A DNA stretch of 64,000 nt from positions 27,479,355 to 27,543,354 of the forward strand of contig NC_088883.1 of the NCBI RefSeq assembly GCF_032884065.1, given 5' to 3'. The DNA is from Artemia franciscana (Eukaryota; Arthropoda; Branchiopoda; Anostraca; Artemiidae). The notes below the pieces were generated by a model, which was given only the letters and a program-made list of their open reading frames with translations, was not told the origin of the DNA and searched no databases. A program made the translations under genes and the position numbers. Each line of letters starts with the position of its first letter. Position 1 is the stretch's first letter. Shown here in pieces: positions 19,476 to 58,200 of the stretch.

Positions 19476-21785
19476 ATTTTTATGGCACTTGGTATTTACC
19501 AAGTGACATATAGCAATTGTAAATTCTTTCGGTCTGTCTGTCAGTCTGTCTGTCCTGGTTTTGCTAGTTTAGGCACTTCCAGATAAGCTAGGACGATAAA
19601 ATTTGGCAGGCGTATCAGGGACCAGACCATATTAAATTAGCATTAGTCGTTTCCCCGGTCCAACCATTTGGGGGGGGGGCGGTTAATTTGGAAAAATTAG
19701 AAAATATGAGGTATTTTTAACTTACGAACGGGTAATCGGATCTTAATGAAATTTGATATATAGAAGAATATAGTGTCTCAGAGCTCTTATTTTAAATCCC
19801 GATCGGATCCTGTGGCATTGGGGGAGTTGGAGGGGGAAACCTAAAATCTTGGAAAACGCTTAGAGTAGAGGGATCGGGATGAAGCTAGGTGTGAAAAATA
19901 AGCAAAAGTCCTAGATACGTTATTAACATAGCCGTAACGGATCCGCTCTCTCTGGGGGAGTTGGGAGGGGGGGTTAATTCTGAAGAACTAGAAAAAATGA
20001 GGTATTTTTAACTTACGAACGGGTGATCAGATCTTAATGAAATTTGATATTTAGAAGGATATCGTGTCTCAGAGCTTTTATTTTTAATTCTGACCGTATC
20101 TGGTGACATTAGGGGGAGTTGGAGGGGGAAACCTAAAATCTTGGGAAACGCTTAGAATGGAGAGGTCAGGATGAAACTTGGTGGGAATAATAAGCACAAG
20201 TCTTAGAAACGTGATTGACATACCCGTACCGGATCCGCTCTCTTTTGGGGAGTTGTGGGGGGGGGGGTAAAAATGAGAAAAAATGAGGTATTTATATCTT
20301 GTGAACGGGTGATCAGATCTTAATGAAAGAGCTCTTATTTTAAATCCCGATCAGACCCGGTGACATTGGGGGGAATTGGAGGGGGGGGACCGAAAATCTT
20401 AGAAAACGTTAAAATTGAGGTAGCTTTATCTTACGAATGGGTGATCGGATGTTAATGAAACTTGATATATAGAAAGATCTTATATCTCAGCTGCTCTATT
20501 TTCAATTCAAATCGGATCTGGGGACATAGGGGGCTGGAGAGGGGAAACAGAAATCTTGGAAACCGGAAATCTTGGAAAATGCTTAGATTGGAGAGATCGG
20601 GATGAAACTTGATGGGAAAAATCAGCACAAGTTTTAGATATGTGATTAACATAATTGGAACGGATCCGCTCTCTTTGGGAGAGTTAGGGGGGATTTTCAG
20701 TGCTTTGGCGAGTTTAGTGCTTCTGGACGTGCTAGGACGATTAAAATTGGTAGACGTTTCAGGGACCTGCACAAATTGACTTGATAACAGTCGTTTCCCC
20801 GATTCGACCTCCTGGACGGCTGGAGGGAGAGGAAAAATTGAAAAAATGAGGTATTTTTAACTTACAAATCGGTGATCGGATCTGAATGAAATTTGATATT
20901 TAGAAGGATCTTGTGCTTCAAAGCTATTATTTTAAACCCCGCCCAGATCCGGTGGCATTGGAGGGGGAAACGGGAAATCTTGGAAAACGCTTAGAGTTGA
21001 GAGATCGGGATGAAACTTGGTGGGAAGGATAAAAAAAAGTCCTAGATACGTGATTGACATAACCAGGCTGAATCTACTCTCTTTGGGGGATTGGCGGGGG
21101 TGTAAATTCGGACAAATTAGAAAAATTAGAAAAATTGAGGTATTTTTAACTTAAGAACAGGTGACTGGATCTTAATGAAATTTGATATTTAGATGGAACT
21201 CATGTTTCAGAGCTCTTATTTCGAATCCCGACCAGAACTGGTGACATTGAAGGGAGTCGGAGGGGAAGCCGGAAATCTTGGAAAACGCTTAGAGTGGAGA
21301 GATCGGGATGAAACTTGGTTGGTAGAATAAGCAAATGTCGTAGATACGTGACTGATGTAACCGTACAGGATTCGCTCTCTTTGGGGGAGTTAGGGGGGTC
21401 CAGTGCTTTGGCTAGTTTGATGCTTCTGGACATGCTAGGACAATGAAAATTGGTAGGCGTGTCAAAAACCTTCACAAATTGACTTGGTAAAGTCGTTTTC
21501 CCCTTTTAACCATCTGGGGGCTGAAGGGAGAGGAAATATTAGAAAAAATGAGGTATTTTTAACTTACGAGTGGGTGATCGGATCTTAATGAATTTTGATA
21601 TTTAGAAGGACCTCGTGTCTCAGAGCTCTTATTTTAAATCCCGACTGACATTAAGCCTCTGATTTTCCTTTTAAATCAATCCTTTGATTCTTAGAATTTT
21701 GCTAGAGCTCATGCCATATAGCTCTTGGCTCTTCAGACCTCGTCACAAGTGCCATATGAGCTCTTAGCTCTTGTTATTGGTTATT
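19476..21785 (+). repeat. Element with internal ~290-bp tandem repeat, copy A
   Basis: The monomer contains 'ggtatttttaacttacgaac', 'cggatcttaatgaaatttga', 'cgtgtctcagagctcttatt', 'aaatcttggaaaacgctta' and 'gggatgaaacttggtggga'. Copies start near 19720, 20010, 20290, 20850, 21140 and 21550. The left end is 'atggcacttggtatttacca' and the right end 'cacaagtgccatatgagctc'. The short inverted words 'atggcacttg' and 'caagtgccat' suggest element boundaries. Copy B is at 39950-42770. Confidence 0.8.
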
Positions 21786-23057: not shown

Positions 23058-25258
23058 AGAATTTGCTTGATTCCTAATTATGACACCCATTTTAAGCCCA
23101 GATTGGACAAAGATGGTATTCCTCTATCTCATGTTAGAGGAGTGGCCCTCCCAAATCGGATTCTTTCATTTTCTGAAATAGAGAACAACTCCAAAACTGA
23201 AGTTCTATGGCTCTGGACCACACCCAAAAACCTCTCAAAAGAAGTATCTTGCATGATTTTTTGTATTATTTATTACCCTCCTCGTAGTGGATTTAAGAAG
23301 GAGCTGACGGCATATCTGCAACTTTATACTGACAGAATTCGCCGCAAGTACCCTTAGGCTGCAATTACATTATATGGTGATTTTGATGAGCTAGACCAAA
23401 AGTGGCTTAGCTCTGCTCTTAGTCTTGATCAGGTAGTCTAGTCGCCTACACGCAATGATAAAATCCTAGACTTGATTTTTACCAACATTGAAGATTACTA
23501 CTTTACCCCAAAAATAGCCCCTCCATTAGGGGCAAGCCATCCATACCATCTATGCATCTTTTGGACCCCTTTATCATCCTTTCCCCCAAAACCATTGATC
23601 AGTTATTCATATAGACCCATTACTGACGAGGAGATTGCCCATTTCAAAGTAAAACTCAGCTCCAAATCTTGGGCCAATATCCTATATCTTACCAATGGTG
23701 ATGAAATGGCTTCTAAATTTTCCGCAGAACTTTTCCAGTTATACTGTGATACCTTTCCAGTGAAAAAAGTTAATCGCAAATCTACTTGTAAACCATGGAT
23801 AAACCATGGAAACATTGTTATTAGCGAAATCCGTAAAGCAAGAAAGAAGCATTGTGCTCACGTGCTCAATAAGTTACTGTGTTCTAACCCTAAGAATTTC
23901 CACAAATGTATCCAAGATCTCATGGGAAAGATCTCTTCAAAGTTTTTCTTACTGGATAGTAATGGTGACCCAGTGAGTGCGGATATCATCAATAATTATT
24001 TTGCTTCAATTTGTAAAACCTACCCGCCACTCAAAAATATGCCGGCCAACAGTGCAGTGAGTGACATTCCCGTGGTTGAAATGCATCAGACCCTGCTTAA
24101 ACTCAAAAATCTTGACATAAATAAGTCACCATATCCAGGTGATATCCCCACCAAATTGATTGTGAAATGTGCCCGATATTTAAGTGTACCTCTAACTGCA
24201 ATTTTTAACCAATCTTTTGTAGATGGTATTTTTCCAGTATGTTTTAAACGAGCTATTGTATCACCTATACCGAAAAAAAAAGACCCCAAAAGTTCTCTCT
24301 GACTTAAGACCAATATCGAAAACCTCTACTTTCTCCAAAATTTTTGAAAGTTTTATTTGCAATTTCCTCTTTGACGATATTCAATATAAAATTAACTTAA
24401 ATCAGTTTGGCTTTAGGCCAAATTATAGCACCACGCATTGCTTAATTTATATACTTGATACTGCATTCAAACATCTTGACTTAAATAGTTCCTATGTTGA
24501 GGCTGTTTTTGCTGATATTAGCAAAGCCTTTGACAACTTGGCTCATCAGACAGTCATTGATAATGCAAGGGCTTTAGGTGTCAGAGATTTTGTTTTACGT
24601 ATGATACGTTTTGTTTTACGTTTTGATACGTTTGATATTACGTTTTTACGATATTACGTTTGATACGTTTGATATTACGTTTTGATACGTATGATACGTT
24701 TTGTTTTGTTTTACGTTTGTACGTATGATAGCCAGGTTTTTGTCTGGTCGTGAGTAATGTGTAGTCCTCCCTAACGGAGATTTATCAGGTTCTACCTCGA
24801 TTTCCTCTGGAGCATCTCAAGGGACTAAATTAGGTCCTTTAGCATTTTTAATTGTTTTTAACAATGGTTACCGAATTTTGACAACAGTTTTGAATTTGCG
24901 GATGATTTGACATTACTTAACCTTTGTTAAACCTCTAATACTTCCGTCATTAAACTTGACTCGCTCACTAACAACTTAAAGAATGATCTTGACAATGCTA
25001 AACTCAACCTATGCATACCTAAAAGCAGTTTAATGCTATTTGCCTTTTTAGAAAATATACCCCCAATCAATAATTACCCTTGCGTACCAAATTTAGATAC
25101 TGTTAAACTGTTTGGTGTGCAGTTGGACAATGACCTTAAATGGAAGTCCCACACTTTTCACTTATTTAAATCTGGTAGTTTCCTCCTTAAATCTTTCTCC
25201 CTTCTCAAATGGTTCTCCATAACAATCCAGAACCTTAAAATAGTCTATTGTTCTTGAA
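22769..25258 (+). pseudogene. CR1/Jockey-like LINE ORF2, nearly continuous but broken
   Basis: In order: endonuclease opening ('ILPANIRSLVNKMEEL'), 'CMIFCIIYYPPRSGFKKEL', 'DKILDLIFTNIEDYYF', the pre-RT region ('CKPWINHGNIVISEIRKARK'), RT blocks 'NLDINKSPYPGDIPTKLIVK', 'FKRAIVSPIPKKKDPKS', 'SDLRPISKTSTFSKIFESFI', 'NQFGFRPNYSTTHCLIYILD' and 'EAVFADISKAFDNLAHQ' (the catalytic Asp block), then 'VKLFGVQLDNDLKWKSH'. The frame is broken at 23045, 23357, 24302 and in the 24600-24725 repeat. The region that should hold the YxDD box (about 24880-24930, 'EFADDLTLL') is still readable with stops around it. It is dead but relatively young. Confidence 0.85.
24598..24727 (+). repeat. Local 'tacgtttgata' repeat expansion inside the RT
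   Basis: Words 'gatacgttt', 'gatattacgttt' and 'cgttttgttttacg' are repeated about a dozen times. The related LINE piece at 29568-29727 lacks it: there 'gattt cgttttacgtattatagcc' runs straight through. So this is a slippage expansion of a single 'gttttacgtatgata' site. Confidence 0.85.
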
Positions 25259-25774: not shown

Positions 25775-25945
25775 AAGCTGAAGATGCTTTTCCAGGTGAC
25801 AGTCAGAAGCTCTTTGATTTTCCAAATCTTTTTTTGTCTCCCAAACCCGAATATACACCTCTGGTGGCATTGGCTGGCATTTCGGGAATTTGTAAACTTG
25901 AACCTGACACCCAGGAATTGGTAGCCAAATGTTCAGACTTTAAAG
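25775..25945 (+). CDS. Unit U1: 171-bp exon of a small gene (exon 2 equivalent)
   Basis: A pyrimidine-rich tract ending in TTAG precedes position 25775 and a GT follows 25945. The exon begins with two bases of a split codon and ends with one, so it is symmetric (phase 1-1). It encodes 56 complete codons with no stop, starting 'EDAFPGDSQKLFDFPNLFLS' and holding 'TPLVALAGISGICKLE' and 'TQELVAKC'. It is the same length and phase as the U3 exon at 37336-37506, with 34 of 56 residues identical and about 38 of 171 bases different. I do not recognise the family. No first exon is found upstream; that side is replaced by the TAG-rich repeat, so this copy may be partial. Confidence 0.5.
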
Positions 25946-26274
25946 GTATATTTCAAACGTTTTGGGTTTTATAAGACCAAATGCAATAAAAGTTTATTGG
26001 AAAGACAGTAGGGAAAATGGTTGGCTTAGTAGGACTGCAGCTAATTTTACGATGGGACTTATCTAAATCCGTAGGTTTTTACTAAACCGTTTTGTATTGT
26101 AACAGGAGCGTTTTCAAGTTGTCAGCCGAAAGAGGATTGGCAAATGTTTTTTTTTTCTAAAAGCCAGCCAATAAAGCTTAAAGCGAAATCAATAATTTTT
26201 TTCATACTTAACATATAAACACCTTTATTACTATCCTGAATTCAATATGACGGATTATGACTTATGAACGAAAA
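25946..26274 (+). other. U1 downstream flank, homologous to U2 and U3
   Basis: It holds 'ttgggttttataagaccaaatg', 'ggaaagacagtaggg' and 'cgatgggacttatctaa', matching 29801-30010 (U2) and 37507-37600 (U3). No coding support. Confidence 0.6.
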
Positions 26275-26410
26275 GCCTGGTAATACCAGATACCAGAAAT
26301 AGAACCCGGAAATAGTACCAGAAATTGAACCTGGCCGTAGCAATACAATGCAGGGTACACACAGTGACCTTACTTGTCAAGAAGCGTTGTTAAATTGATT
26401 ACTTACTTAA
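26275..26410 (+). mobile_element. SINE remnant in U1
   Basis: 'agcctggtaatacc', 'gcagggtacacacagtgacc' and 'cttgtcaagaagcgttgtta' match the SINE tail at 7768-7895. An equivalent remnant is in the same place in U2 (30100-30215), so it was inserted before the units duplicated. Confidence 0.5.
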
Positions 26411-26546
26411 ATGAGCAGAACATGGGATATTATGATTTTGACTGACTCCCAGAATTTTTTGTGTAGAATATTAATTTATTCGAAGCTGTAGACTAAAACA
26501 AAAATACCAAAATAATTTTGTGCTACCAAAGGGAAGTGTTTTTTAA

Positions 26547-26551
<5 letters not shown>

Positions 26552-26619
<68 letters not shown>
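26552..26619 (+). repeat. Poly-T run, about 68 bases
   Basis: Uninterrupted T from about 26552 to 26619. It could be the tail of a retroposed copy on the minus strand or a slippage tract. Length may be unreliable in assembly. Confidence 0.9.
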
Positions 26620-26623
<4 letters not shown>

Positions 26624-27289
26624 GATCAATTTTACTTGTAATATAAAACTAGAGCTACATATCAAGTCAAAAAAAGTCTCAATAAAGAAGAAGAAAGTCA
26701 GGTTTGAAATTCTAGTGAGACATACGAGGGTATAAACCTCTAGACTCAAAAAATACATCCTTTGGTGTAACTTCATTGAAAATTTAACTTTTATGATATT
26801 TTTTACTGTGAAAATTTATATTCGATAAAGGTATTACTTTTCGTGAAAAGAGGAGGGGAAATCAATGAAAGGATGTAAAAATATAATGACTATATATTTG
26901 AACAAAGTCAACTCTATAGTTGATTATTTTAACTATCCAACCAGTTGAACTAAGATGAGATGCGATTTATTACTGGAAAACGGCTATCACAAGCCCTGAT
27001 GGGCCGAATTCGCAGTTTAGCTCCAATAAACAAAAAAGAACCAAAAACAAACAAGAAAAAAAATATTATAAGGGTAATGCCAAATATACAGTAATGTCAA
27101 AAACAATTAAAACTCTTAAAGTTAAAGGTCAATGCCGAATCAGCAAAATGTCAAAACAATGATAACTCGTAATACTAAAAAGATATAAAATAATTAAAAC
27201 AAAAACAATTTAGTTACGGGATCAAAAATTAGAAAGATCGAAATTTGCAAAACTAAAGTTAAAATTATAAGGTAAAAAAGGAGTAAGGG
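26620..27289. other. No gene; probable LINE 3' debris
   Basis: The complement of 'gggccgaattcgcagtttag' with 'ctccaataaacaaa' near 27001-27035 resembles 3' tails of CR1-like LINEs in my memory. Nothing firm. Confidence 0.3.
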
Positions 27290-27600
27290 TGGGGGGACTC
27301 ACTGATTGAAATGTCAACTATATAAGGGATGAAATTTTCTCGGTATCTTCCAGTGACTATGACTTTTAGGGGGTGTTTCCCCCTATTTTCTAAAAGGACG
27401 CAAATTTTCTCAGGCTCGTAACTTTTGATGCGTAAGACTAAGCTTGATGAAACTTATATATTTAAAATCAGCATTAAAATGCGATTCTTTTGATGTAGCT
27501 ATTGGTATCAAAATTCCATTTTTTAGAGTTTTGGTTTCTATTGAGCCGGGTCGCTCCTTACTACAGTTCGTTACCACGAACTGTTTGAAAACTTTTATTG
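27290..27600 (-). repeat. R1 repeat fragment, inverted
   Basis: The complement of the first 310 bp of the R1 family at 16524: it ends with 'gttaccacgaactgtttg' and contains 'gagccgggtcgctccttact'. Confidence 0.75.
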
Positions 27601-27670
27601 GGCAAAAAGGGGTACTTTTGCTGAAGGTGAATGCAGGAGGTGAGGTCGAAGGGGTGAATATTGACTAGGG

Positions 27671-27722
27671 AAAAGGGTAATTGTCCGAGGGTTATGAATA
27701 ACCCTCGGACAATTACCCTTTT
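27671..27722. repeat. 24-bp perfect inverted repeat
   Basis: Arms 27671-27694 and 27699-27722 (starting 'aaaagggtaattgtccgagg') with a 4-base centre, perfectly complementary. No parent element identified. Confidence 0.9.
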
Positions 27723-28100
27723 GCGTTAGAACGCAAGGGATTTTTGCTCTCCTTTACTTAAGGGTGACTAGATTGGCTTTCCAAAGAAGGAAAATTCTTA
27801 ATCACCTTTTTGACTGTCTCTATTCTGTCTGACAATTCAATGGAGATGCCAATATGCCAAACAGGAAAGACCTACTCCAGGTTTGGGTCTAGAAATGAGA
27901 GGAAAATCTTCAGAGAATCCCAGTTAGGACTTGTAAATTATTTAACTACTATGTTTGCCAGTCCCCTGTTGTCCCTGCTAACGATGGAATAAAAAACAAC
28001 TTAAAAAATATATATTGACTTTTTAATCAGTTTAACTAACTATAAAGCCAGTTCTTAATTGTTAATATCATGACAGATTCAAACTTATAATCTTATAGAT
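27723..28100. other. No certain gene; possible LINE C-terminal scrap
   Basis: The plus frame 27810-27992 has 'YSRFGSRNERKIFRES' and reads like the end of a LINE ORF2 only loosely. I cannot support more. Confidence 0.25.
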
Positions 28101-28398
28101 TCTATTTAGTACTAACAAAATAATTGCGAAACTGTGGCAATGGGATGGATTTTTAATTATAATCGCTACACAACACCTTTGAGACAAATTTCCTTACCCT
28201 CAAATGTATGATAAATAAAGAAAATATTGGGAAATTATTTGTCTGAGTCTAAAATGCATATCAGGAATCACTAGTTAATGCCTTAATTAGGGCTAGTTAT
28301 GAGATATCATTGACAAAGATAACCGCGGTTTAAAGTTAATCCCATTTCTTGTGATTAAATAAAAGGTACTATAATTTGTCTAATTTTTTAGCCTCTTA

Positions 28399-28516
28399 AT
28401 GAAGACGATTGTACTCTTTCACCCCATTCTTAGTTTCATGCGCCTCTCCTTAGCGGAAATGAAACCAAAGTTTCTGTACCTTCAAACGCATTGGAAGCAA
28501 CTAATAAGTATACCAG
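28399..28516 (+). pseudogene. U2 exon 1 equivalent (signal-peptide exon)
   Basis: ATG at 28399 opens 39 codons collinear with U3 exon 1 without gaps: 'MKTIVLFHPILSFMRLSLA' against 'MKMIELLPFILSFVCLSLA', then 'EMKPKFLYLQTHWKQLISIP'. A His and an Arg now sit in the hydrophobic core, weakening it as a signal peptide. The splice donor GT of U3 is GC here (28517-28518), a rare but possible donor. Exon 2 of this unit is broken, so I treat it as a pseudogene. Confidence 0.45.
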
Positions 28517-28812
28517 GCAGCAAATGATGCCAACCCCTCATTGTGAACACGATCTTGTGTAGATTTAACAGCCAATTGTTAGTTACTGGTCTTCTCTTGT
28601 CAAATATTTTGAAGCAGAATTTTTTATTTTCTCCGCAGCACTAAGTTAGCCAAATCTGGAAATTTCTGAAATTCTAAATTAAAAAGATTAGTATGAAACC
28701 AATTATGCATATATTTGGAACAGTTCATCAAAGACTGGATCAATGTTGACAAAATCAACCCTGTCTTGGTCCTGAAGTTGGTATCTTTGCCGCAGGTCAT
28801 ATATCTAATATC

Positions 28813-29229
28813 ACTACTTTGAAAATAGCGACGAAGACCACACTGCCTTTCCATAACAAACAAATACAAAGTAGAGACAATAGGGAAAATCTTTTCAAGA
28901 CAGTGGAAATTAATTCTGTGGATATTTCGGCCCTATGTCCAAGGGCCGTCTTCAGCACAATACAAGAATAAGAGAGAAACTATATATATATATAAATGAA
29001 CTTACATCAAATTGTGAGAATTAAAACTAAATAATTAAAAACACTTTTTAAAACTTTTTTTAAAATAGCCCTAGCATTCTTACTTCAACGAAGTTCAACC
29101 AGGACTGGCGAAAAGAATGAAATGGGAATATAAGCTCATTCAAACCGAAATATCCACATAATTAATTTCCACTGTCTTGAAAAGATTTTCGCTATTGTCT
29201 CTACTTTGTATTTGTTTACTACTTTGAAA
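28813..29229. mobile_element. Penelope-like insertion in U2 with 12-bp target duplication
   Basis: The repeat 'actactttgaaa' flanks the insertion (28813-28824 and 29218-29229), and U3 has the single uninterrupted site at about 37240. The 393-bp insert has inverted arms (about 28850-28932 and 29142-29217) containing 'aagacagtggaaattaatt'. The left arm on the minus strand shows 'gtgctgaagacggccct', a loop, then 'agggccgaaatatccac', a hammerhead-like layout. The centre has a short (ta)n. The start 'gaagaccacactgcctttcc' also resembles the element at 2077. Confidence 0.75.
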
Positions 29230-29343
29230 GGAGCAGATGAAAAGTTTAATTATATTTAGTTAAGCCTTACCTTTGAATTCGTTTTATGTCTCGCCTTACC
29301 TTTGAATTCGTTTTATGTCTCTTTTTTGTGTATTTTGATTTAA

Positions 29344-29800
29344 AAGTTGAAGATGTATTACCAGATTACAATTAGGAGCTCTTTGATGTTCTAAATCGTT
29401 TTTTGTCATCCGAAACCTAAGATACTCCTCTGATTGCTTTGCCCGGTATTTCGGTAAGCTGTGAAACGTAAAATACAAAATCGACAACCATGCTGTGGGA
29501 GAAATTTTTAACATAAACTCATTTAATGAGTCATTAAGTCCATACTTATTAAGTATTTTTGAAACTCATTAAGTTCCTACGTTGAGGCTGTTTTTCTGAT
29601 ATTAGCAAAGCCTTTGACAACTTGGATCATCAGACAGTCATTGATAATGCAAGGGCTTTAGGTGTCAGAGATTTCGTTTTACGTATTATAGCCAGTTTTT
29701 TGTCTGTTCGTGAGTAATGTGTAGTCCTGGGACAACTTGGGACTTGTGAATTTAAACATGATGCACAAGAATTTGGAGCCAAATGTTTTGGACACTTAAG
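29344..29800 (+). pseudogene. U2 exon 2 equivalent, split and broken
   Basis: 29344-29457 and 29735-29800 align to the 171-bp exon of U1 and U3. The acceptor AG has become AA, an in-frame TAG follows 'PDYN', and a 277-bp insertion lies after 'PLIALPGIS'. The part after the insertion ('EFKHDAQEFGAKCF') keeps the donor GT at 29801-29802. This copy cannot make the protein. Confidence 0.7.
29458..29734 (+). mobile_element. LINE-derived insertion in U2 exon 2
   Basis: 29568-29727 is a near copy of 24495-24600 plus 24727-24760 (CR1-like RT, 'ISKAFDNLDHQTVIDNARAL'), without the 24600-24725 expansion. 29464-29520 resembles 38778-38830 ('gcaaccatgctgtg', 'gagaaatttttaacataaa'). Confidence 0.7.
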
Positions 29801-30099
29801 GTACATCTCAAACCTTTGGGTTTTATAGAATCAAATGCATCCAGAAAACTTTTGCTGGAAAGACAATAGGGCGAATGGACTATCTACTAGGACTTTAGCT
29901 AATCTCACGATTGGACTTATCTCAATGCATAGGTTTTTACCAAACCCTTTTGTAGTCTAACAGGAACCTTTTCAAGTCACCTGAAAGAAGATTAGCTGAA
30001 TGCTTATTATTTTTTTGTGTCTTAATTAACATATAAGCCCCTTTATTATTATTATTATTATTCTGATTTCAAAATGACAGATTATGCTTTAAAAACGTA

Positions 30100-30215
30100 C
30101 AGAAGATGACAGCTTGGTAATACGGATCGCGGAGATTGAGGGAGGCTCTGGCATCACAGTACAGGTCGACGCAGGGACCTTACTAGTCGAGAAACGTCAT
30201 TAATCTGATTACTTA
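30100..30215 (+). mobile_element. SINE remnant in U2
   Basis: 'agcttggtaatacggatc' and 'cgcagggaccttactagtcg' with 'gtcattaatctgattac', the same family and position as the U1 remnant. Confidence 0.5.
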
Positions 30216-30739
30216 CTAAACAAGCAGAAGATGGGCTTTTATAGTCGTTTTATGGTGTATTATGGTGCTATAGAGTATTTATTTGCTTCAGGTCAGATTT
30301 CTAAAATTACTTCTTTAAAAGGAGCAAAGGAAAAGCTTAAATCTCTTTGGTGGTGGAGCTAGGTAAACGTCACATATTTTTAAGCATTTTTCTATTCAAC
30401 CTTCATTTAAAAGTGGGCCCTGCCAGTATTTTTTGCCGAAACAGTGCTTTCAAGTCAGAAGTTGAAACATGACTCGATGGAATAAAAACTCGGCTAATTT
30501 TAAAGTAGTAAAACAAGATAATGCTTAGTGGATTCAAACCACTCATTCTCAGTTGGGTCATAAGAAGCTGCATTTAATAGCGTATTATTAGGTATTTTGC
30601 TTAAAGTACCCATTTTCCGACAATCCTTAAGCAGAGACGCATAGACAAAGATATGACCCGTGCACAAAACGCAATCAGAACAAAGTGCTAACGAATGAAG
30701 AACAATAAAAACGGCGGCTTCTTGAAAAACTACACTGTA

Positions 30740-33700
30740 TATATACTGCAAAACTCAAATCGAAATCGAATATTTAGCTTTAACACAATTATTTGCGAAA
30801 ACCATCTTTGTTGGCCCCTGGCAAGAATTGTAAGTAGCTGTAAGCTAAACAAACAAACAAACCAAAAAGTAAATTATACCTAGTGCCAACATCATTCTTT
30901 ACTTGCAAAACTCAAATCGAGATCGAATATGTAGCTTTAACACAATTACTTGCAAAAACCATCTTTGTTGGCCCCAGGCAAGAATTGTAAGTAGCAGTAA
31001 GCTAAACAAACAAACAAACCAAAAAGTAAATTATACATTGTGCCAACATCGTTCTTTAATTGCAAAACTCAAATCGAAATCGAACATGTAGCTTTAGCAC
31101 AATTACTTGCGAAAACCATCTTTGTTGGCCCCAGGCAAGAATTGTTGGTAGCTGTAAGCTAAACAAACAAACAAACCAAAAAGTAAATTATACATTGTGC
31201 CAACATCGTCCTTTAATTGCAAAACTCAAATCGAAATCGAACATGTAGCTTTAACACAATTACTTGCGAAAACCATCTTTGTTGGCCCCTGGCAAGAATT
31301 GTTGGTAGCTGTAAGCTAAACAAACAAACAAACCAAAAAGTAAATTATACATTGTGCCAACATCGTTCTTTAATTGCAAAACTCAAATCGAAATCGAACA
31401 TGTAGCTTTAACACAATTACTTGCGAAAACCATCTTTGTTGGCCCCAGGCAAGAATTGTTGGTAGCTGTAAGCTAAACAAACAAACAAACCAAAAAGTAA
31501 ATTATACATTGTGCCAACATCGTTCTTTAATTGCAAAACTCAAATCGAAATCGAACATGTAGCTTTAACACAATTACTTGCGAAAACCATCTGTTGGCCC
31601 AGGCAAGAATTGTTGGTAGCTGTAAGCTAAACAAACAAACAAACCAAAAAATAAGTTACACATTGTGCCAACATCGTTCTTTAATTACAAAACTCAAATC
31701 GAAATCGAATATGTAGCTTTAACACAATTACTTGCGAAAACCATCTGTTGGCCCCAGGCAAGAATTGTAAGTAGCTGTAAGCTAAACAAACAAACAAACC
31801 AAAAAAAAATTATACATTGTGCCAACATCATTGTTTACTTGCGAAACTCAAATCGAGATCGAATATGTAGCTTTAACACAATTACTTGCGAAAACCATCT
31901 TTGTTGGCCCCAGGCAAGAATTGTAAGTAGCTGTAAGCTAAACAAACAAACAAACCAAAAAGTAAATTATACATTGTGCCAACATCGTTCTTTAATTGCA
32001 AAACTCAAATCGAAATCGAACATGTAGCTTTAGCACAATTACTTGCGAAAACCATCTTTGTTGGCCCCAGGCAAGAATTGTTGGTAGCTGTAAGCTAAAC
32101 AAACAAACAAACCAAAAAGTAAATTATACATTGTGCCAACATCGTTCTTTAATTGCAAAACTCAAATCGAAATCGAACATGTAGCTTTAACACAATTACT
32201 TGCGAAAACCATCTTTGTTGGCCCCTGGCAAGAATTGTTGGTAGCTGTAAGCTAAACAAACAAACAAACCAAAAAGTAAATTATACATTGTGCCAACATC
32301 GTTCTTTAATTGCAAAACTCAAATCGAAATCGAACATGTAGCTTTAACACAATTACTTGCGAAAACCATCTTTGTTGGCCCCAGGCAAGAATTGTTGGTA
32401 GCTGTATGCTAAACAAACAAACAAACCTAAAAGTAAATTATACATTGTGCCAACATCTTTCTTTAATTGCAAAACTCAAATCGAAATCGAACATGTAGCT
32501 TTAACACAATTACTTGCGAAAACCATCTGTTGGCCCCAGGCAAGAATTGTTGGTAGCTGTAAGCTAAACAAACAAACAAACCAAAAAATAAGTTACACAT
32601 TGTGCCAACATCGTTCTTTAATTACAAAACTCAAATCGAAATCGAATATGTAGCTTTAACACAATTACTTGCGAAAACCATCTGTTGGCCCCAGGCAAGA
32701 ATTGTAAGTAGCTGTAAGCTAAACAAACAAACAAACCAAAAAGTAAATTATACATTGTGCCAACATCGTTCTTTAATTGCAAAACTCAAATCGAAATCGA
32801 ACATGTAGCTTTAACACAATTACTTGCGAAAACCATCTTTGTTGGCCCCAGGCAAGAATTGTTGGTAGCTGTAAGCTAAACAAACAAACAAACCAAAAAG
32901 TAAATTATACATTGTGCCAACATCGTTCTTTAATTGCAAAACTCAAATCGAAATCGAACATGTAGCTTTAACACAATTACTTGCGAAAACCATCTTTGTT
33001 GGCCCCAGGCAAGAATTGTTGGTAGCTGTAAGCTAAACAAACAAACAAACCAAAAAGTAAATTATACATTGTGCCAACATCGTTCTTTAATTGCAAAACT
33101 CAAATCGAAATCGAACATGTAGCTTTAACACAATTACTTGCGAAAACCATCTTTGTTGGCCCCTGGCAAGAATTGTTGGTAGCTGTAAGCTAAACAAACA
33201 AACAAACCAAAAAATAAATTACACATTGTGCCAACATCGTTCTTTAATTGCAAAACTCAAATCGAAATCGAACATGTAGCTTTAACACAATTACTTGCGA
33301 AAACCATCTTTGTTGGCCCCAGGCAAGAATTGTTGGTAGCTGTAAGCTAAACAAACAAACAAACCAAAAAGTAAATTATACATTGTGCCAACATCGTTCT
33401 TTAATTGCAATCGAAATCGAACATGTAGCTTTAGCACAATTACTTGCGAAAACCATCTTTGTTGGCCCCAGGCAAGAATTGTTGGTAGCTGTAAGCTAAA
33501 CAAACAAACAAACCAAAAAGTAAATTATATATTGTGCCAACATCGTTCTTTAATTGCAAAACTCAAATCGAAATCGAACATGTAAGCTTTAACACAATTA
33601 CTTGCGAAAACCATCTTTGTTGGCCCCTGGCAAGAATTGTTGGTAGCTGTAAGCTAAACAAACAAACAAACCAAAAAGTAAATTATACATTGTGCCAACA

Positions 33701-36392
33701 TCGTTCTTTAATTGCAAAACTCAAATCGAAATCGAACATGTAGCTTTAACACAATTACTTGCGAAAACCATCTGTTGGCCCCTGGCAAGAATTGTTGGTA
33801 GCTGTAAGCTAAACAAACAAACAAACCAAAAAATAAATTACACATTGTGCCAACATCGTTCTTTAATTGCAAAACTCAAATCGAAATCGAACATGTAGCT
33901 TTAACACAATTACTTGCGAAAACCATCTTTGTTGGCCCCAGGCAAGAATTGTGGTAGCTGTAAGCTAAACAAACAAACAAACCAAAAAGTAAATTATACA
34001 TGTGCCAACATCGTTCTTTAATTGCAAAACTCAAATCGAAATCGAACATGTAGCTTTAACACAATTACTTGCGAAAACCATCTTTGTTGGCCCCAGGCAA
34101 GAATTGTTGGTAGCTGTAAGCTAAACAAACAAACAAACCAAAAAGTAAATTATACATTGTGCCAACATCGTTCTTTAATTGCAAAACTCAAATCGAAATC
34201 GAACATGTAGCTTTAACACAATTACTTGCGAAAACCATCTGTTGGCCCCAGGCAAGAATTGTTGGTAGCTGTAAGCTAAACAAACAAACAAACCAAAAAG
34301 TAAATTATACATTGTGCCAACATCGTTCTTTAATTGCAAAACTCAAATCGAAATCGAATATGTAGCTTTAACACAATTACTTGCAAAAACCATCTGTTGG
34401 CCCCAGGCAAGAATTGTTGGTAGCTGTAAGCTAAACAAACAAACAAACCAAAAATAAGTTACACATTGTGCCAACATCGTTCTTTAATACAAAACTCAAA
34501 TCGAAATCGAATATGTAGCTTTAACACAATTACTTGCGAAAACCATCTGTTGGCCCCAGGCAAGAATTGTAAGTAGCTGTAAGCTAAACAAACAAACACA
34601 CCAAAAAGTAAATTATACATTGTGCCAACATCGTTCTTTAATTGCAAAACTCAAATCGAAATCGAACATGTAGCTTTAACACAATTACTTGCGAAAACCA
34701 TCTTTGTTGGCCCCAGGCAAGAATTGTTGGTAGCTGTAAGCTAAACAAACAAACAAACCAAAAAGTAAATATACATTGTGCCAACATCGTTCTTTAATTG
34801 CAAAACTCAAATCGAAATCGAACATGTAGCTTTAACACAATTACTTGCGAAAACCATCTGTTGGCCCCAGGCAAGAATTGTTGGTAGCTGTAAGCTAAAC
34901 AAACAAACAAACCAAAAAATAAGTTACACATTGTGCCAACATCGTTCTTTAATTACAAAACTCAAATCGAAATCGAATATGTAGCTTTAACACAATTACT
35001 TGCGAAAACCATCTGTTGGCCCCAGGCAAGAATTGTAAGTAGCTGTAAGCTAAACAAACAAACAAACCAAAAAGTAAATTATACATTGTGCCAACATCGT
35101 TCTTTAATTGCAAAACTCAAATCGAAATCGAACATGTAGCTTTAACACAATTACTTGCGAAAACCATCTTTGTTGGCCCCAGGCAAGAATTGTTGGTAGC
35201 TGTAAGCTAAACAAACAAACAAACCAAAAAGTAAATTATACATTGTGCCAACATCGTTCTTTAATTGCAAAACTCAAATCGAAATCGAACATGTAGCTTT
35301 AACACAATTACTTGCGAAAACCATCTTTGTTGGCCCCAGGCAAGAATTGTTGGTAGCTGTAAGCTAAACAAACAAACAAACCAAAAAGTAAATTATACAT
35401 TGTGCCAATATCGTTCTTTAATTGCAAAACTCAAATCGAAATCGAACATGTAGCTTTAACACAATTACTTGCGAGAACCATCTGTTGGCCCCAGGCAAGA
35501 ATTGTTGGTAGCTGTAAGCTAAACAAACAAACAAACCAAAAAATAAGTTACACATTGTGCCAACATCGTTCTTTAATTACAAAACTCAAATCGAAATCGA
35601 ATATGTAGCTTTAACACAATTACTTGCGAAAACCATCTGTTGGCCCCAGGCAAGAATTGTAAGTAGCTGTAAGCTAAACAAACAAACAAACCAAAAAGTA
35701 AATTATACATTGTGCCAACATTGTTCTTTAATTGCAAAACTCAAATCGAAATCGAACATGTAGCTTTAACACAATTACTTGCAAAAACCATCTTTGTTGG
35801 CCCCAGGCAAGAATTGTTGGTAGCTGTAAGCTAAACAAACAAACAAACCAAAAAGTAAATTATACATTGTGCCAACATCGTTCTTTAATTGCAAAACTCA
35901 AATCGAAATCGAACATGTAGCTTTAACACAATTACTTGCGAAAACCATCTTTGTTGGCCCCAGGCAAGAATTGTTGGTAGCTGTAAGCTAAACAAACAAA
36001 CAAACCAAAAAGTAAATTATACATTGTGCCAACATTGTTCTTTAATTGCAAAACTCAAATCGAAATCGAACATGTAGCTTTAACACAATTACTTGCGAAA
36101 ACCATCTTTGTTGGCCCCAGGCAAGAATTGTTGGTAGCTGTAAGCTAAACAAACAAACAAACCAAAAAGTAAATTATACATTGTGCCAACATCGTTCTTT
36201 AATTGCAAAACTCAAATCGAGATCGAACATGTAGCTTTAACACAATTACTTGCGAAAACCATCTGTTGGCCCCAGGCAAGAATTGTTGGTAGCTGTAAGC
36301 TAAACAAACAAACAAACCAAAAAATAAGTTACACATTGTGCCAACATCGTTCTTTAATTACAAAACTCAAATCGAAATCGAATATGTTTCGA
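30740..36392 (+). repeat. Satellite array, 157/155-bp monomer, about 36 copies
   Basis: Direct head-to-tail monomers begin with 'gcaaaactcaaatcgaaatc' at 30748, 30905, 31062 and so on to 36360 (36 full and one partial). The commonest length is 157 bp; a 155-bp form has 'catctgttggcc' in place of 'catctttgttggcc'. Marker variants ('gtaagtag' versus 'gttggtag', 'ataagttacac' versus 'gtaaattatac', 'gaatatgtag' versus 'gaacatgtag') recur together in adjacent pairs at about monomers 6-7, 12-13, 24-25, 27-28, 31-32 and 36-37, which shows a higher-order repeat of about 4-6 monomers. Monomer length is not a multiple of three, so the short open frames in it are not a gene. Confidence 0.97.
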
Positions 36393-36805
36393 TTGTGCTA
36401 CCTATGATAATTACGAAACTGTGGCGGTGGGATGTATATTTAATTAAAATCGCTACATAACTCCGTTGACACAAACTTTGTTGCCCTGAGAAGTACAAGA
36501 AACAAAGGAATCTAGGCAAATTATTTATTTTGGCCTAAAATGTATTTCAAGAATCAGTAGAATATGCAAAAACAGTTATATAATTATAATAGTCATATAG
36601 TTATACTATTATAATATAGTTATAACTTATAAAGCTATAGAGTTATAATGTATTTCAGGAATCATTAGTAGATGTGCAAATAGTTATGTAGTTGTTGCAA
36701 TAGTTATAATTTATCATCGCCAAAGATGACCACGGTTTAAAGAAAACCTCATTTCTTTTGATCAAATAAAAGGTAAACTAATTTGTCGAATAGTTTACCC
36801 TCTTA

Positions 36806-36923
36806 ATGAAGATGATCGAACTCTTGCCATTTATTCTTAGTTTCGTGTGCCTCTCCTTAGCGGAAATGAAACAAAAGTTTCCGCACCTTCAAATGTATTG
36901 GAAGCAACTAATAAGTATACCAG
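36806..36923 (+). CDS. U3 exon 1: start codon and signal peptide of a predicted secreted protein
   Basis: ATG at 36806 begins 'MKMIELLPFILSFVCLSLA', a textbook signal peptide with a likely cut before E20. The mature start is 'EMKQKFPHLQMYWKQLISIP'. Reading into G40 crosses a donor 'CAG|GTAGCA' at 36923/36924, which leaves one base (phase 1). That fits exactly with exon 2, which begins with two bases of a split codon; the joined codon is GAA. U2 carries a gap-free homologue. The function is unknown. An alternative is that the frame simply runs on to a stop at 37097, but no homology supports that part. No promoter was identified. Confidence 0.5.
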
Positions 36924-37335
36924 GTAGCAAAAGATGCCGACCCCTCAGTATGAAGACACTCATGGCTAAACAACCAATTGTTAACTATAGGTATTTTCTT
37001 GTCATGTATTTTGCAGCAGAATTTTTTGTTTGCTCCACAGCACTAAATTTGGCAACACTCTTGAAATTTCAAAATTTTGCATGGAACATATTCGTATGAA
37101 ATCAATTATGCATATATTTTGAACAGCTCATCAAAGACGGGATCAATGTTGACAAAATCAACCCTTTCTTGGTCCTAAGGTCCTAGGGTCCTAAGTCCTA
37201 ACGTTGATCTCCTTGCTGCAGGTCAAATTTATAATGTCAGTACTTTGAGAAGGTCAAAGGAAAAGCTTTTTTTTTTTTAGTTAAGCCTCACCTTTGAATT
37301 GGGTTTATGTCTCTATTATTTATACTTTGTTTTAG

Positions 37336-37506
37336 AACTTGAAGACGCTTTACCAGATGACAATAAAGAGCTCGTTGATGTTCCAAATATTCTTTTGTCT
37401 CCCAAACGCCAAGATACTCCTTTGGTTGCTCTACCCGATATTTCCGGAAGTTGTAAACTTGAACACTACACACAGGAATTGGGAGCCACATGTTTGGACA
37501 ATAAAG
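37336..37506 (+). CDS. U3 exon 2: 171-bp symmetric exon
   Basis: Acceptor 'tactttgttttag' ends at 37335 and donor GT is at 37507-37508. It is phase 1-1 like its U1 counterpart. It encodes 'LEDALPDDNKELVDVPNILL', then 'SPKRQDTPLVALPDISGS', 'CKLEHYTQELGATCLDNK'. There are two Cys and many acidic residues, and no known domain that I recognise. Compared with U1, about 29 of 38 base differences change an amino acid, so the ratio of replacement to silent change is near one: either fast evolution or recent loss of constraint. The following exon is uncertain. Confidence 0.5.
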
Positions 37507-37599: not shown

Positions 37600-38840
37600 A
37601 TTTCTAATTGACCATAATATCCTTGTAAATAAACTGTTGATTGAGTATCAAGTGAGTCCCTGTTTAGTTAAAATTGTTGCCTCGTTTTTTACAAATAGTT
37701 CTCAAGTGCTTAAATATGAAAATGTTTATTCTGATCCCCTTCCTATCTTCCTGTTTCCCCCAGGGAACCCTGATGGGTCCCATTTTATTCCTTATAATGG
37801 TTAATAGATTTATGACTGACCACACAGTGCGATGGAAGTATGTGGATGACCTGTCTGCACTTGAGGTTTGTCGACAAAATATTAAAAACTCAACTATGAC
37901 ATTACTTGACGATGTCACAGAGGCGGCTTCTTCGTCGAATATGAAAGTTAAGGCTAATAAATCGTCGGTTATGATAATTAATTTTTTAAATCATCCCCTT
38001 CTTTCACAAACTCCACTCCTCCCAAAATCCCTGTCACATCCATTAAACTACTTGGGGTGACAATCACTGCTGACTTGATGTGGGATGCCCATGTTCAAAA
38101 TATACTAAAGCAAGCTTCCCCTTCGGTTTCCCTTCTAAAACTTTTGTTAAAGTTTTCTTGCCCCCTTAAGGATCTTCTCCAACTTTATTGTTCTTTTATT
38201 CGGCCAATTAGTTTGCTCATCCAGTGTGGCATTTCGGTCTTTCTTCAGAGCATATTTATAAGATTGAAAATGTCCAAAAACGAGCACTTAGAATCATAAA
38301 TGGTGAAGGGAAGTTTCCATATCATTATCTACTTGGTAAGTTCAAGCTCACCACATTGGCCGAGAGAAGGCACCTCCTATGCCTTTGTTCCAGTACCAAG
38401 ACCCTGGTTGTTTCTCGATTATGTTCCATTATCCCCGAACTCTACCTTCCCGCCCGCAACAGACCATCCCGTATACAATCCCCAAACTGACTCCCATCCC
38501 CGCTAAACATGAAAGATATCGGAAGAGTTTTGTTCCAAGTTTTGGTGAGTTATATAATAGCCAGGAAAATTAGTCATTAATTTTATTGTTTTCTATTTAT
38601 TTTTTTCTTTTTGACTTTTTAACTAAGTTTTAACTCGTCATATTTTTTATGTATTTTCATTAATTTTATTGTTACCTATTTATTTTTCATTTTTGACTTT
38701 TTTATTAAGTGTTGACTCTTTTATGTTTATGCAAGTTTTTTCGATGTTATATATATCTATATTTGCTAGCGCTTGTTTTACGTAAAATTCAAATTCGGCA
38801 ACCATGCTGTGAGAGAAATTTTTAACATAAAATAATATTC
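37600..38840 (+). pseudogene. LINE reverse-transcriptase fragment inserted in U3
   Basis: Plus-strand frames give 'IDHNILVNKLLIEYQVSPCL', 'FFTNSSQVLKYE', 'FPQGTLMGPILFLIMVN', 'WKYVDDLSALEVCRQN' (YVDD active site), 'NMKVKANKSSVMIINF', 'GVTITADLMWDAHVQNIL' and 'IENVQKRALRII'. It starts abruptly within the RT, has several frame changes, and ends with AT-rich 3' sequence to about 38840, where U-unit homology resumes ('aggactttagctaat'). It is a 5'-truncated copy, probably of the Jockey/I-like group. Confidence 0.8.
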
Positions 38841-39949: not shown

Positions 39950-42770
39950 CATTCCCTTCGTCATTACTGGAAATTTTTAAGGTGATGGGATCTTAATGAA
40001 ATTTGATATTTTGAAGGATATTGTGTCTCAGAGTTCTTATTTTAAATCCCGACCAGATCTGGTGACATTGGGGGGAGCTGGAGGGGAGAACCTAAAATCT
40101 TGAAAAACGGTTAGAGTGGAGGGATCGGGATGAAACTTGGTGGGAAAAATAAGCAGAAGTCCTAGATACGTTATTGACATAACCGGAATGGATCTGCTCT
40201 GTTTGGGGTAGTTGGGAAGGGGGGGGGGGGGTTAATTCTGAAAAATTAGTAAAAATGAGGTATTTTTAATTTACGAAGGAGTGATCGGATCTCAATGAAA
40301 TTTGAATTTTGGAAGGATATCGTGTCTCAGAGCTCTTATTTAAAATCTCGACTGGATCCGGTGACATTGGGGGGAATTGAGGGCGGGGGGACCTAAAATC
40401 TTGGAAAACGCTTAGAGTGGAGGGATCGGGATGAAACTTGGTGGGGAAAATAATCAGAAGTCCTAGATACGTTATTGACATAACTGGAATGGATTTTCTC
40501 TGTTTAGGGGAGTTAGGGGGAGGGGTTAATTCTGAAAAATTAGAAAAAAATTAGGTATTTTTAACTTACGAAGGAGTGATTAGATCTCAATGAAATTTGA
40601 AGTTTGGAAGGATATCGTGTCTCAGAGCTCTTATTTAAAATCTTGACTGGATCCGGTGACATTGAGGGGAATTGAGGGCGGGGGGGACCTAAAATCTTGG
40701 AAAACGCTTAGAGTGGAGGGGTCGGGATGAAACTTGGTGGGAAAAATAAGCACAAGTCCTAGATACGTGACTGACATAACCGCAACGGATCTGTTCTCTT
40801 TGGAAGAGTTGGGGGAGGGGGGTTAGTTCTGAACAAATTAGAAAAATGAGGTATTTTTAACTTACGAAGGAGTGATCGGATCTTAATGAAATTTGAAGTT
40901 TGGATCTATATCGTGTCTCAGAGCTCTTATTTTTAATCCTGACTGGATCCGGGGACATTGGGGAGGAATTGAGGGGGGGGGGCTAAAATCTTGGAAAACG
41001 CTTAGAGTGGAGGGATTGGGATGAAACTTGGCTGGAAAAATAAGCACAAGTCCTAGATACATGATTGACACAACCGGGACGGATCCGCTCTCTTTGGGGG
41101 AGTGGGGGTGAGGGTTAATTCTGAAACATTTGAAAAATGAGGTATTTTTAACTTACGAAGGAGTGATCGGATCTTAATGAAATTTGATGCTTGGAAGGAT
41201 ATCATGTTTCAGAGCTCTTATATTAAATCTTGACCTTATCCGGTGAAGGGGAAGTTGGGGGGTAACCTAAAATCTTGGAAAATGCTTAGAGTGGAGGGAT
41301 CGGGATGAAACTTGGTGGGAAAAATAAGCACAAGTCCTAGATACGGGATTGATATAACCAGAACGGATCTGCTCTCTTTGGGGGAGTTGGGGGGGGGAGG
41401 GTTAATTCTAAAAAATTAGAAAAAATGAGGTATTTTAAACTTGTGAAAGAGTGATCGTATATTAATGAAATTTCATATTTAGAAGGACCTCAAAACTCAG
41501 ATCTCTTATTTTTTATCCCGACCGGATCCAGTGTCATTAGGAGGGGGGGGGCGAAAATCTTGGAAAACTCTTAAAGCGGAGATATCAGGATGAATCTTGG
41601 TGGACAGAATAAGCACAAGTCCAAGATAGGTGTCTGACATAACCGGACCAGATGTGCTCTCTTTGGTGGAGTTGAGGCGGGGGGGGGGAGTAATTTGGAA
41701 AAATTATAAAAAATGAGGTATTTGTAACTTACGAGCGGGTGATCAGATCTCGATGAAATTTGATATCTAGAAGGATCTTGTGCTTTAAAACTCTCATTTA
41801 AATCCCGACCAGATCCGGTGACATTGAAGGGAGTTGGAGGGGGAAGCCGGAATTCTTGGAAAACGTGAAAATCGAGGTATCTTACGAATGGGAGATCGGA
41901 TCTCAATGAAACTTGATATATAGAAGAATCTTGTGTCTCAGGTACTCCATTTTCAATTCGAATCAGATCCGGGGACATAGAGGGTTGGAGGTGGGAAACA
42001 GAAATCTTGGAAACCGGAAATCTTGGAAAACGCTTAGAGTGGAGATATCGGGATGAAACTTGATGGGAAGAATAAGCACAAGTTATAGATACGAGATTGA
42101 CATAATTGGTACGGATCCGTTCTCTTTGGGGGAGCTGGGGGTTGTTAATTTAGAAAAATTGAGGTATTTTTAACTTAAGAACGGGTGACCGGATCTTAAT
42201 GAAATTTGATATTTAGAAGGAACTCATGTCTCAGAGCTCTTATTTCAAATCCCGACCAGATCTGTTGCCATTGGGGGGAGTTTTAGGGGGAAACCAGAAA
42301 TCTTGGAAAATGCTTATAAATGTCGTAGATACGTGATTGACGTAACCTGACTGGATCCGCTCTCTTTGGGGGAATTAGGTGGTGGGGTTCAGTGCTTTGG
42401 CGAGTTTGGTGCTTCTGTACGTTCTAGGAAGATGAAAATTGGTAGGTGTGTCAGGGAGCTGTACAAATTGACTTGATAAAGTTGTTTTCCCTGATTCGAA
42501 CATCGGGGGGCTAAAGGGAGAGGAAACATTAGAAAAATTGTGGTATTTTTAACTTGCGAGTGGGTGATCGGATCTTAATGAATTTTCATATTTAGAAGGG
42601 TCTCGTGACTAAGAGCTCTTATTTTAAATCCCGACCGGCATTAAGCCTCTGATTTTCCTTTTAAAGCAATCTATTGTTTCTTAGAATTTTGCTAGAGCTC
42701 ATACCATATGAGCTCTTGGCTCTTCCGACCTCGTCACAAGTGCCATAGGAGCTCTTAGCTCTTGTTGTTT
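39950..42770 (+). repeat. Element with internal ~290-bp tandem repeat, copy B
   Basis: Same monomer as copy A (19476-21785). Starts near 39980, 40260, 40557, 40853, 41145, 41427, 41717, 42165 and 42540. The right end is the same as in copy A: 'aatcccgaccggcattaagc', then 'gtcacaagtgccatagga'. The left inverted end is missing, so it is truncated by the TAG-rich repeat. Confidence 0.8.
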
Positions 42771-47376: not shown

Positions 47377-47554
47377 TATATGAACGTTAAGTATCTATCT
47401 TTTATATATGCACACTTCACGAGTGGTAGACACTGCGGATGCTAATGATACAATATTTATTGAAGGCACCTTTCATTCATACCTGTGGTAATGCTACTTT
47501 TTTAAATTTTCTTCATTTTTTTTTTGCTTTTAATGAAACTTTTCTTTACTATAG

Positions 47555-48393
47555 AAAAAATGCCTTCTACTATGTCCAGTTCTGATGGCGTAATTCAACC
47601 GAAATTCCTAGGCCCAAACCCAGCTGCTGTGGTTAAAACGCCAATTTCACAGTATCTGCCTACAAGTGGTTTTTCAGGTTCATTTGAACTGAAGTCTGAA
47701 GTAAAAAGCGTAGATAATCAGAAAACAGATCTGAATAGTCACATCTACAGTAAAAAGCACAGAAAATTGGGAATGCATAAAAAAATAGATAGAGCCAAAA
47801 AATATAAATGTGATGAATGTGAAAAATCTTTTACGCGGAAGGACAGCTTGAATAACCACCTACGAATACATACTGGTGAGAAACCGTTAAAGTGTGATAT
47901 ATGTCAGAAGAGGTTTTCTCGGTCGAGCAACTTGAATGCGCATCAAAGAATACATAATGGTGAGAAACCATATAAATGTGATGTATGTAAGAAATGCTTT
48001 TCTTATTTGAGCCACTTCAGTACCCATCAAAGAATACATACTGGTGAGAAACCATATAAATGCGATGTATGTCAGGAGACCTTTTCCCAATCGAGCACCT
48101 TGAATACGCATCAAAGAATAAATTCTGGTGAAAAACCATATAAATGTGATATATGTGAAAAATCTTTTTCTGATTTAAGCCACCTTTATAGGCATCAAAG
48201 AATACACACTGGTGAGAAACCGTTTAGATGTGATATATGTCAGAAGAGGTTTTCTCAATCGAGCAGCTTGAATGCGCATCAAAGAATACATTCTGGTGAA
48301 AAACCATATAAATGCAATGTATGTAAGAAATGCTTTTCTTCATTAAGCAACTTAAATAGGCATCGAAGAATTCATACCGGTGAGAAACTTTAA
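47555..48393 (+). CDS. C2H2 zinc-finger protein, seven fingers
   Basis: The protein from ATG 47560 has a finger-free start ('[20 protein letters not shown]'), then from about residue 82 seven Krüppel-type fingers of 28 residues: '[20 protein letters not shown]', then '[20 protein letters not shown]' and so on, with HTGEKP-type linkers (some HNGEKP, NSGEKP). One finger ends H-RIN, so its last His is replaced by Asn. Pairs of fingers are near repeats of each other. Such proteins bind DNA in the nucleus; the target is unknown. 'ttttctttactatag' just before 47555 is a good splice acceptor, so this is probably the last exon and an upstream exon may supply the true start. ATG 47533 would read through the acceptor. 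The frame ends at TAA 48391 because of a frameshift. Confidence 0.85.
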
Positions 48394-57062: not shown

Positions 57063-57124
57063 AAATTATAACAAATTTATAACAGTAAATTAAAACAGTA
57101 AATTTTATAACAAAAATTCATCAA

Positions 57125-58200
57125 TTAAAAATAAATCAACAGATTAATCGAATCAAAAATTGATTAATTGAGCTTCTAGAAATGGCTTAAGCACGTATTC
57201 ATGTATAAATGACTTAAGCATGCTAGCATGTATTCAGCCTAATTTCTAGAAAAATAGAAAAAGAATTAAAAAAAATTAAAAAAACAACAGATTAATCGAA
57301 TCAAAAATTGATTGATTGAGCTTCTAGAAATGGCTTAAGCACGTATTCATGTATAATGACTTATGTATGTTAGCATGTATTCATCCTAATTTCGAGAAAA
57401 ACAGAAAAAGAATAAAAAAAAAAATAAAAAATCAATTAAAAAAAAACAACAGATTAATCGAATCAAAAATTGATTGATTGAGTTTCTAGAAATGATTTAA
57501 GCACGTATTCATGTATAAATGACTTAAGCATGTTAGCATGTATTCAGCCTAATTTCTAGAAAAATAGGAAAAGAATTAAAAAATCAATTTAAAAAAACCA
57601 ACAGATTAATCGAATTTTAAAATTGATTGATTGAGCTTCTAGAAATGGCTTAAGCAAGTATTCATGCATAAATGACTTAAGCATGTTAGCATGTATTCAG
57701 CCTAACCAGTTAACTATTTCTTGAAAAATAGAAAAAGAATAAAAAAATAAATAAAAAATCAATTAAAAAAAAAAAAACAGATTAATCGAATCAAAAATTG
57801 ATTGATTGAGTTTCTAGAAATGATTTAAGCACGTATTCATGTATAAATGACTTAAGCATGTTAGCATGTATTCAGCCTAATTTCTAGAAAAATAGGAAAA
57901 GAATTAAAAAATCAATTTAAAAAAACCAACAGATTAATCGAATTTTAAAATTGATTGATTGAGCTTCTAGAAATGGCTTAAGCATGTATTCATGCATAAA
58001 TGACTCAAGCATGTTAGCATGTATTCAGCCTAATTTCTTGAAAAATAGAAAAAGAATTAAAAAAAAAAAATTAATTTAAAAAACAACAACAGATTAATCG
58101 AATCAAAAATTGATTGATTGAGCTTCTAGAAATGGCTTAAGCACGTATTCATGTATAAATGACTTAGGCAAGTTAGCATGTATTCAGCCTAACCAGTTAA
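57125..58200 (+). repeat. Tandem repeat, seven copies of about 150-177 bp
   Basis: 'acagattaatcgaat' marks starts at about 57139, 57289, 57448, 57601, 57778, 57930 and 58090. Each has 'gagcttctagaaatggctta', 'agcacgtattcatgtataaa', 'catgttagcatgtattcagc' and an A-rich end of variable length. The piece 'agcttctagaaatggctta...cacgtattca' matches 31 bases of the next exon (58283-58330) with four differences. Confidence 0.9.

Follow-up and report, generated by a model that had tools for sequence, protein, structure and literature searches.

A 171-bp exon associated with C2H2 zinc-finger arrays in the genome of Artemia franciscana, and three of its copies at one locus

To what kind of gene do three diverged copies of a small exon, 171 base pairs (bp) long, belong? 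The copies—U1, U2 and U3—lie in a stretch of 64,000 nucleotides from the branchiopod Artemia franciscana (NCBI RefSeq assembly GCF_032884065.1, contig NC_088883.1, positions 27,479,355 to 27,543,354 of the forward strand), which we call the window and from whose first letter positions are counted here. A preliminary description, made from the letters of the window alone, joined U3 to a putative signal-peptide exon and proposed either a fast-evolving family of secreted proteins or a family losing function. Parts of that proposal stand: the family is real, and at this locus it may be decaying. The secreted protein does not stand, because the 171-bp exon keeps company with C2H2 zinc-finger genes. 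Very probably a large family of such genes uses it as a 5′ coding exon, of which U1, U2 and U3 are copies in tandem. Four features of the window carry the argument:

25775 to 25945, forward strand: U1, a second, open copy of the 171-bp exon, which shares 133 of 171 bases (78%) with U3
29344 to 29799 (limits approximate), forward strand: U2, a dead copy that has stops, AA in place of the acceptor AG, and an insertion that divides it
37336 to 37506, forward strand: U3, 171 bp, phase 1-1, encoding a 56-residue acidic module, with an open frame, an AG acceptor and a GT donor
47555 to 48390, forward strand: a zinc-finger exon, consisting of a linker and then seven C2H2 fingers, with its acceptor AG at 47553–47554, in phase 1

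The 171-bp exon is far from confined to the window. We searched the genome, window included (1,270,528,402 bases in 6468 contigs), and for the module, the linker and the fingers alike we list at most the best 150 scored candidates. The U3 exon has 28 matches at the DNA level and at least 150 relatives at the protein level (the best 150 of 223 candidates), spread over many chromosomes; 144 of the 150 are free of internal stops and six are not. Thirty loci, representing 26 distinct modules, were fetched, and the extrapolated borders carry AG in 28 (all but L020 and L023) and GT in 27 (all but L014, L027 and L028). The introns upstream are homologous among many of the copies, as in segmental duplication. 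Blastn homology upstream continues through the introns in close relatives, and takes in only short stretches adjoining the exon between distant ones; no shared first exon was recognized by blastn within 1.5 kilobases (kb) upstream of the module, among the matches listed.

These homologous introns supply a yardstick. Among 80 pairs of paralogues with alignable upstream introns, 55 have an intron identity below 92%, and in 54 of these, which are not independent of one another, the exon is more alike than the intron. Pairwise ratios of replacement to silent change per site (dN/dS) across 29 sequences have a median of 0.52, taken over the 376 of 406 pairs in which the proportion of silent differences, pS, lies between 0.1 and 0.6; the set includes near-identical entries (L013 is U1, and L020 is close to L021), and U3 is entered as L009. 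Because exons outlast introns in this way, and because the median ratio is low, we conclude from these comparisons that the module is under purifying selection across the family. U1 and U3, compared with each other, give no clear sign of it. The calculation of dN/dS over several copies, which the preliminary description had proposed as a check, thus finds constraint for the family and, for the U1–U3 pair, none that is clear, although their own ratio is 0.41 (Fisher p 0.024).

What ties the exon to zinc fingers is its position. The linker that opens the zinc-finger exon of the window has 42 matches in the genome among those listed, the window's own included, and within 15 kb of these a 171-bp exon lies upstream on the same strand in 22 cases, downstream on the same strand in three, and on the opposite strand in none; 19 have no such neighbor. 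A second query, the linker of L087, gives 144 listed matches, for which the corresponding numbers are 58, four, three and 82. When strands were shuffled 500 times, the 58 fell to a mean of 31 and never exceeded 42. Finger hits chosen without regard to the linker behave likewise: a 171-bp exon precedes 34 of 102 arrays on their own strand, where 1000 shuffles give a mean of 18.4 and a maximum of 27; four arrays have one downstream on the same strand, one has one on the opposite strand, and 66 have none. All of these counts include the window locus, and the two linker lists overlap. Single C2H2 fingers were themselves sought genome-wide, where the best 150 of 6345 first-look candidates were scored, and the scored matches cluster at C6 4.0–4.4 megabases (Mb), C14, C16 6.33 Mb and elsewhere.

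Certain copies go further than proximity. In L031/L071, at C14:41.3 Mb, the module and a finger array occupy one open frame, and the position at which they join is the exact site of the donor and the acceptor in other copies. We read this as a precise intron loss, an event that would need a spliced intermediate; no other observation short of RNA speaks as strongly for splicing. In L088, two modules and a finger exon follow one another within 2.4 kb, and two 171-bp exons lie upstream of the finger exon in nine of the 144 L087-linker matches. The exon is symmetric (phase 1-1), and so extra copies can splice in with the frame unbroken. At the level of sequence, the 171-bp exons form a family that has splice borders and is linked to finger exons.

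The window itself fits this layout, in a worn form. Its zinc-finger exon consists of tandem C2H2 fingers with TGEKP-type linkers (PF00096, zf-C2H2, with an expectation value, E, of 2.8e-46; PF13465, E 1.6e-57). Six fingers are canonical and one is without its last histidine; the frame stops in the linker behind the seventh finger, and beyond the end of the frame finger-like letters carry on, judged by eye. The exon starts in phase 1, which would accommodate a splice from U3, 10.2 kb away. As for the 171-bp exons, the preliminary description got most particulars right: U3 is open and phase 1-1 between AG and GT borders, U1 retains both splice sites and has no stop, U2 is broken, and 38 of the 171 bases differ between U1 and U3, with no insertion or deletion between them. 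Its figure of about 29 replacement changes has to be lowered, since by the method of Nei and Gojobori there are 24 replacement and 14 silent changes, which alter the residue in 22 codons. The changes fall over codon positions 1, 2 and 3 as 14, 11 and 13, and when neutral change was simulated, 20,000 times for each of three transition biases, 4–16% of runs gave a stop-free exon with equally few replaced residues. U2 has in-frame stops, AA at the position that aligns with the acceptor AG of U3, and an insertion (29473–29738) that interrupts the exon and contains a LINE-like fragment (LINE, long interspersed nuclear element). One dead and two near-neutral module exons, the lost histidine and the frame that ends in a linker suggest a gene on its way out, or else an old, relaxed member of the family.

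Several observations weigh against our interpretation, some at the level of the family and some at the locus. In the 15 kb that precede them on their own strand, 86 of the 144 listed finger exons have no listed module; conversely, 84 of the 150 listed modules lack a listed finger exon in the 15 kb downstream. At three modules a stretch of 8 kb was fetched, and two of these, L069 and L070, contain no finger array. The first module of L088 has an abnormal 3′ end and L087 has an interruption in its upstream module; decay of modules is therefore seen in genes other than this one as well. In the window, a splice from U3 to 47555 is compatible in phase only, which chance would deliver one time in three, and the start of the finger exon (47555–47640) resembles a different type of finger-gene exon, found in L078. 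In L078 that exon start shares an open frame with a linker of the sort that stands behind the 171-bp exon elsewhere, and exon shuffling is possible. Finally, the identity between the U1 and U3 exons (133/171, 78%) is not above that of the adjoining aligned intron (92/112, 82%); with the even spread over codon positions and the outcome of the simulations, this makes neutral drift of U1 and U3 compatible with the data.

Some of the unpaired modules and finger exons may be accounted for by long introns and by the counting only of matches that are listed. A same-strand finger match sits just past the end of L069 (C21:1336554), and another lies about 15 kb from the module of L070 (C14:4182835). Isolated or dead modules may well exist also, U2 being an example.

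The secreted-protein reading depends on two further features of the window, both of which we judge to lie outside the gene:

36806 to 36923, forward strand: the 'signal peptide exon' of U3, a chance open frame in a dispersed repeat
28399 to 28516, forward strand: the U2 counterpart, open, with a GC donor, a tandem repeat copy

That U3 belongs to a two-exon gene for a secreted peptide, 36806–36923 spliced to 37336–37506, has some initial appeal. The upstream segment begins with ATG and is open to its GT donor, just as the preliminary description stated; the frames of both segments are open, their phases fit, and the first of them starts with a hydrophobic stretch. The U2 counterpart is open, too, as was also stated, but its donor is GC. 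The appeal fades when the segment is followed through the genome, where it proves to be a dispersed repeat with 37 DNA matches, those of U3 and U2 among them. Of the 29 copies compared with U3, only that of U2 combines an ATG with an open reading in the correct frame; L062 and L063 are likewise free of stops in that frame but lack the ATG. By eye, the start position reads AAG in 15 of the 29, codon 7 is a stop in 15, and the donor reads CT in 19. Around the 35 copies outside the window, a radius of 50 kb takes in none of the 150 listed modules, and between U2 and U3 the dN/dS of the segment is about 1.3. In the other fetched copies of the repeat, the LINE fragments that adjoin U3 were not seen. 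The signal-peptide stretch is neither conserved nor linked to the 171-bp exon, whose relatives are tied to finger arrays instead; no secreted protein is supported, we reject that reading as very improbable, and the likeliest account of the 'signal peptide exon' is a frame open by chance in an old dispersed repeat. A reading of the 171-bp unit as a mobile element instead of an exon is more improbable still. The unit's many copies on many chromosomes might give that impression, but its borders are splice sites, its frame is kept, the introns upstream are homologous between many copies, and the unit is oriented towards finger arrays.

A rival of a different kind concerns the locus only, and leaves the claim about the family untouched: U1, U2 and U3 might all be dead copies that do not splice to the exon at 47555 and may never have done so. 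U2 is dead, LINE fragments and satellite DNA surround the three copies, and the two findings just described—changes between U1 and U3 that are even over codon positions, and an exon no better preserved than its intron—are what such copies would show. Yet U1 and U3 are still open, with both splice signals and no insertion or deletion between them, and a finger exon follows downstream on the same strand, with a linker of the right family and the right phase; its distance from U3, 10.2 kb, falls within the range of other genes. We regard this rival as a serious one, though less likely than not. That U1, U2 and U3 belong to a gene with the finger exon at 47555–48390 seems probable to us, judging from the arrangement of the sequences.

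The surroundings of the three copies are rich in repeats. A satellite array of about 36 copies of a 157-bp unit fills positions 30747–36387, between U2 and U3, and within the U2 block there is a 73-nucleotide inverted repeat, 97% complementary, with the look of a foldback element (28858–28930 and 29145–29217). Fragments that resemble LINE reverse transcriptase, labeled so by eye, adjoin U1, U2 and U3 (24223–25254, 29590–29740 and 37668–38296, respectively), and the pieces at U1 and U2 resemble each other. Elsewhere in the window, tandem repeats with units of about 291–298 bp and related sequences occur at 19673–21388 and 39982–42020, and at 57120–58192 a 328-bp unit is repeated 3.4 times.

What the module might do can be gauged from its composition and from its fingers. 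In an alignment of 24 modules a single cysteine is invariant and 14 positions are nearly so, and aspartate and glutamate together average 20% of the residues of these members, a figure for which no background was computed for comparison. Searches with the U3 module and with the 24-member alignment found no convincing relative in Pfam or the PDB. The nearest candidates were VWA_CoxE (E 0.046, from a single member and below the cut-off of the model) and 2ocz (E 0.098), both too weak to accept. Folded as a single sequence, the U3 module has no secondary structure and a mean predicted local distance difference test score (pLDDT) of 56.6; this is weakly compatible with disorder, as the fold was predicted with no alignment. 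In the fingers, variation is concentrated where DNA is contacted: positions −1, 2, 3 and 6 have a mean entropy of 2.88 bits in a set of 90 distinct fingers drawn from 21 sources, whereas the other eight average 1.39 bits, or about 1.86 bits when two that are fixed by the selection filter are set aside. Fingers that bind diverse targets show this pattern, although it would be expected of C2H2 fingers at large.

Zinc-finger families with modules of their own are familiar from other animals. KRAB zinc-finger genes of tetrapods have one or more effector exons separate from, and 5′ of, the exon for the finger array; they occur in clusters, and their DNA-contact residues are diverse. ZAD zinc-finger genes have expanded in insects, again with an N-terminal module, which binds zinc by way of four cysteines. 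The Artemia family resembles the former in its module exon 5′ of a finger-array exon, its clusters and its varied contact residues, and the latter in being an arthropod expansion with an N-terminal module. In a Pfam scan (E 0.1), which covers models of both, none of the 24 modules matches KRAB and none matches ZAD, and the one invariant cysteine contrasts with the four of ZAD. Closest in layout is FiNZ, of cyprinid fish, as described in PMC10547256: a large, clustered family, like that of the 171-bp exon, with a conserved one-exon module upstream of the finger-array exon, an arrangement that we see in Artemia in the genomic positions and in the one fused copy. By description rather than by sequence, the two differ: the FiNZ module has 28 residues and ours 56–57, the Artemia genes have one or two copies of the module in phase 1-1 exons, and the hosts are a fish and a crustacean. 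In literature searches for zinc-finger families or associated domains in Artemia or crustaceans, no title or abstract opening among those listed deals with such a family in Artemia, and other papers may describe one; by term search, 'zinc finger' does not occur in the main text of the A. franciscana genome papers PMC11492255 and PMC10827361.

How might such a gene work? The messenger RNA would begin with a first exon, continue with one module exon or more, and pass on to the finger exon. The product would be a nuclear DNA-binding protein whose fingers pick the target, and whose acidic module is most likely an effector or a linker segment, if the analogy with FiNZ (PMC10547256) is a sound guide. 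According to the same source, large zinc-finger families whose N-terminal modules are specific to a lineage are thought to track transposable elements. By analogy with KRAB and FiNZ genes, the targets here, too, are perhaps transposable elements, which the family may silence. At the locus in the window, constraint would have been relaxed and the gene would be decaying. We offer, as a tentative proposal somewhat short of an even bet, the bolder picture in full: a zinc-finger-associated module new to the literature searched, present in at least 150 copies and with an origin parallel to those of KRAB, ZAD and FiNZ, that recruits a silencing cofactor to transposable elements, in genes that grow by duplication of a symmetric exon.

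The secreted-protein reading of this locus was a false lead, and it is now corrected. Repeats make up about 65% of the A. franciscana genome, by the figure given in PMC11492255. In so repeat-rich a branchiopod, a candidate new zinc-finger family would add an independent case of a lineage-specific N-terminal module, and this module is a concrete sequence whose partner protein could be sought.

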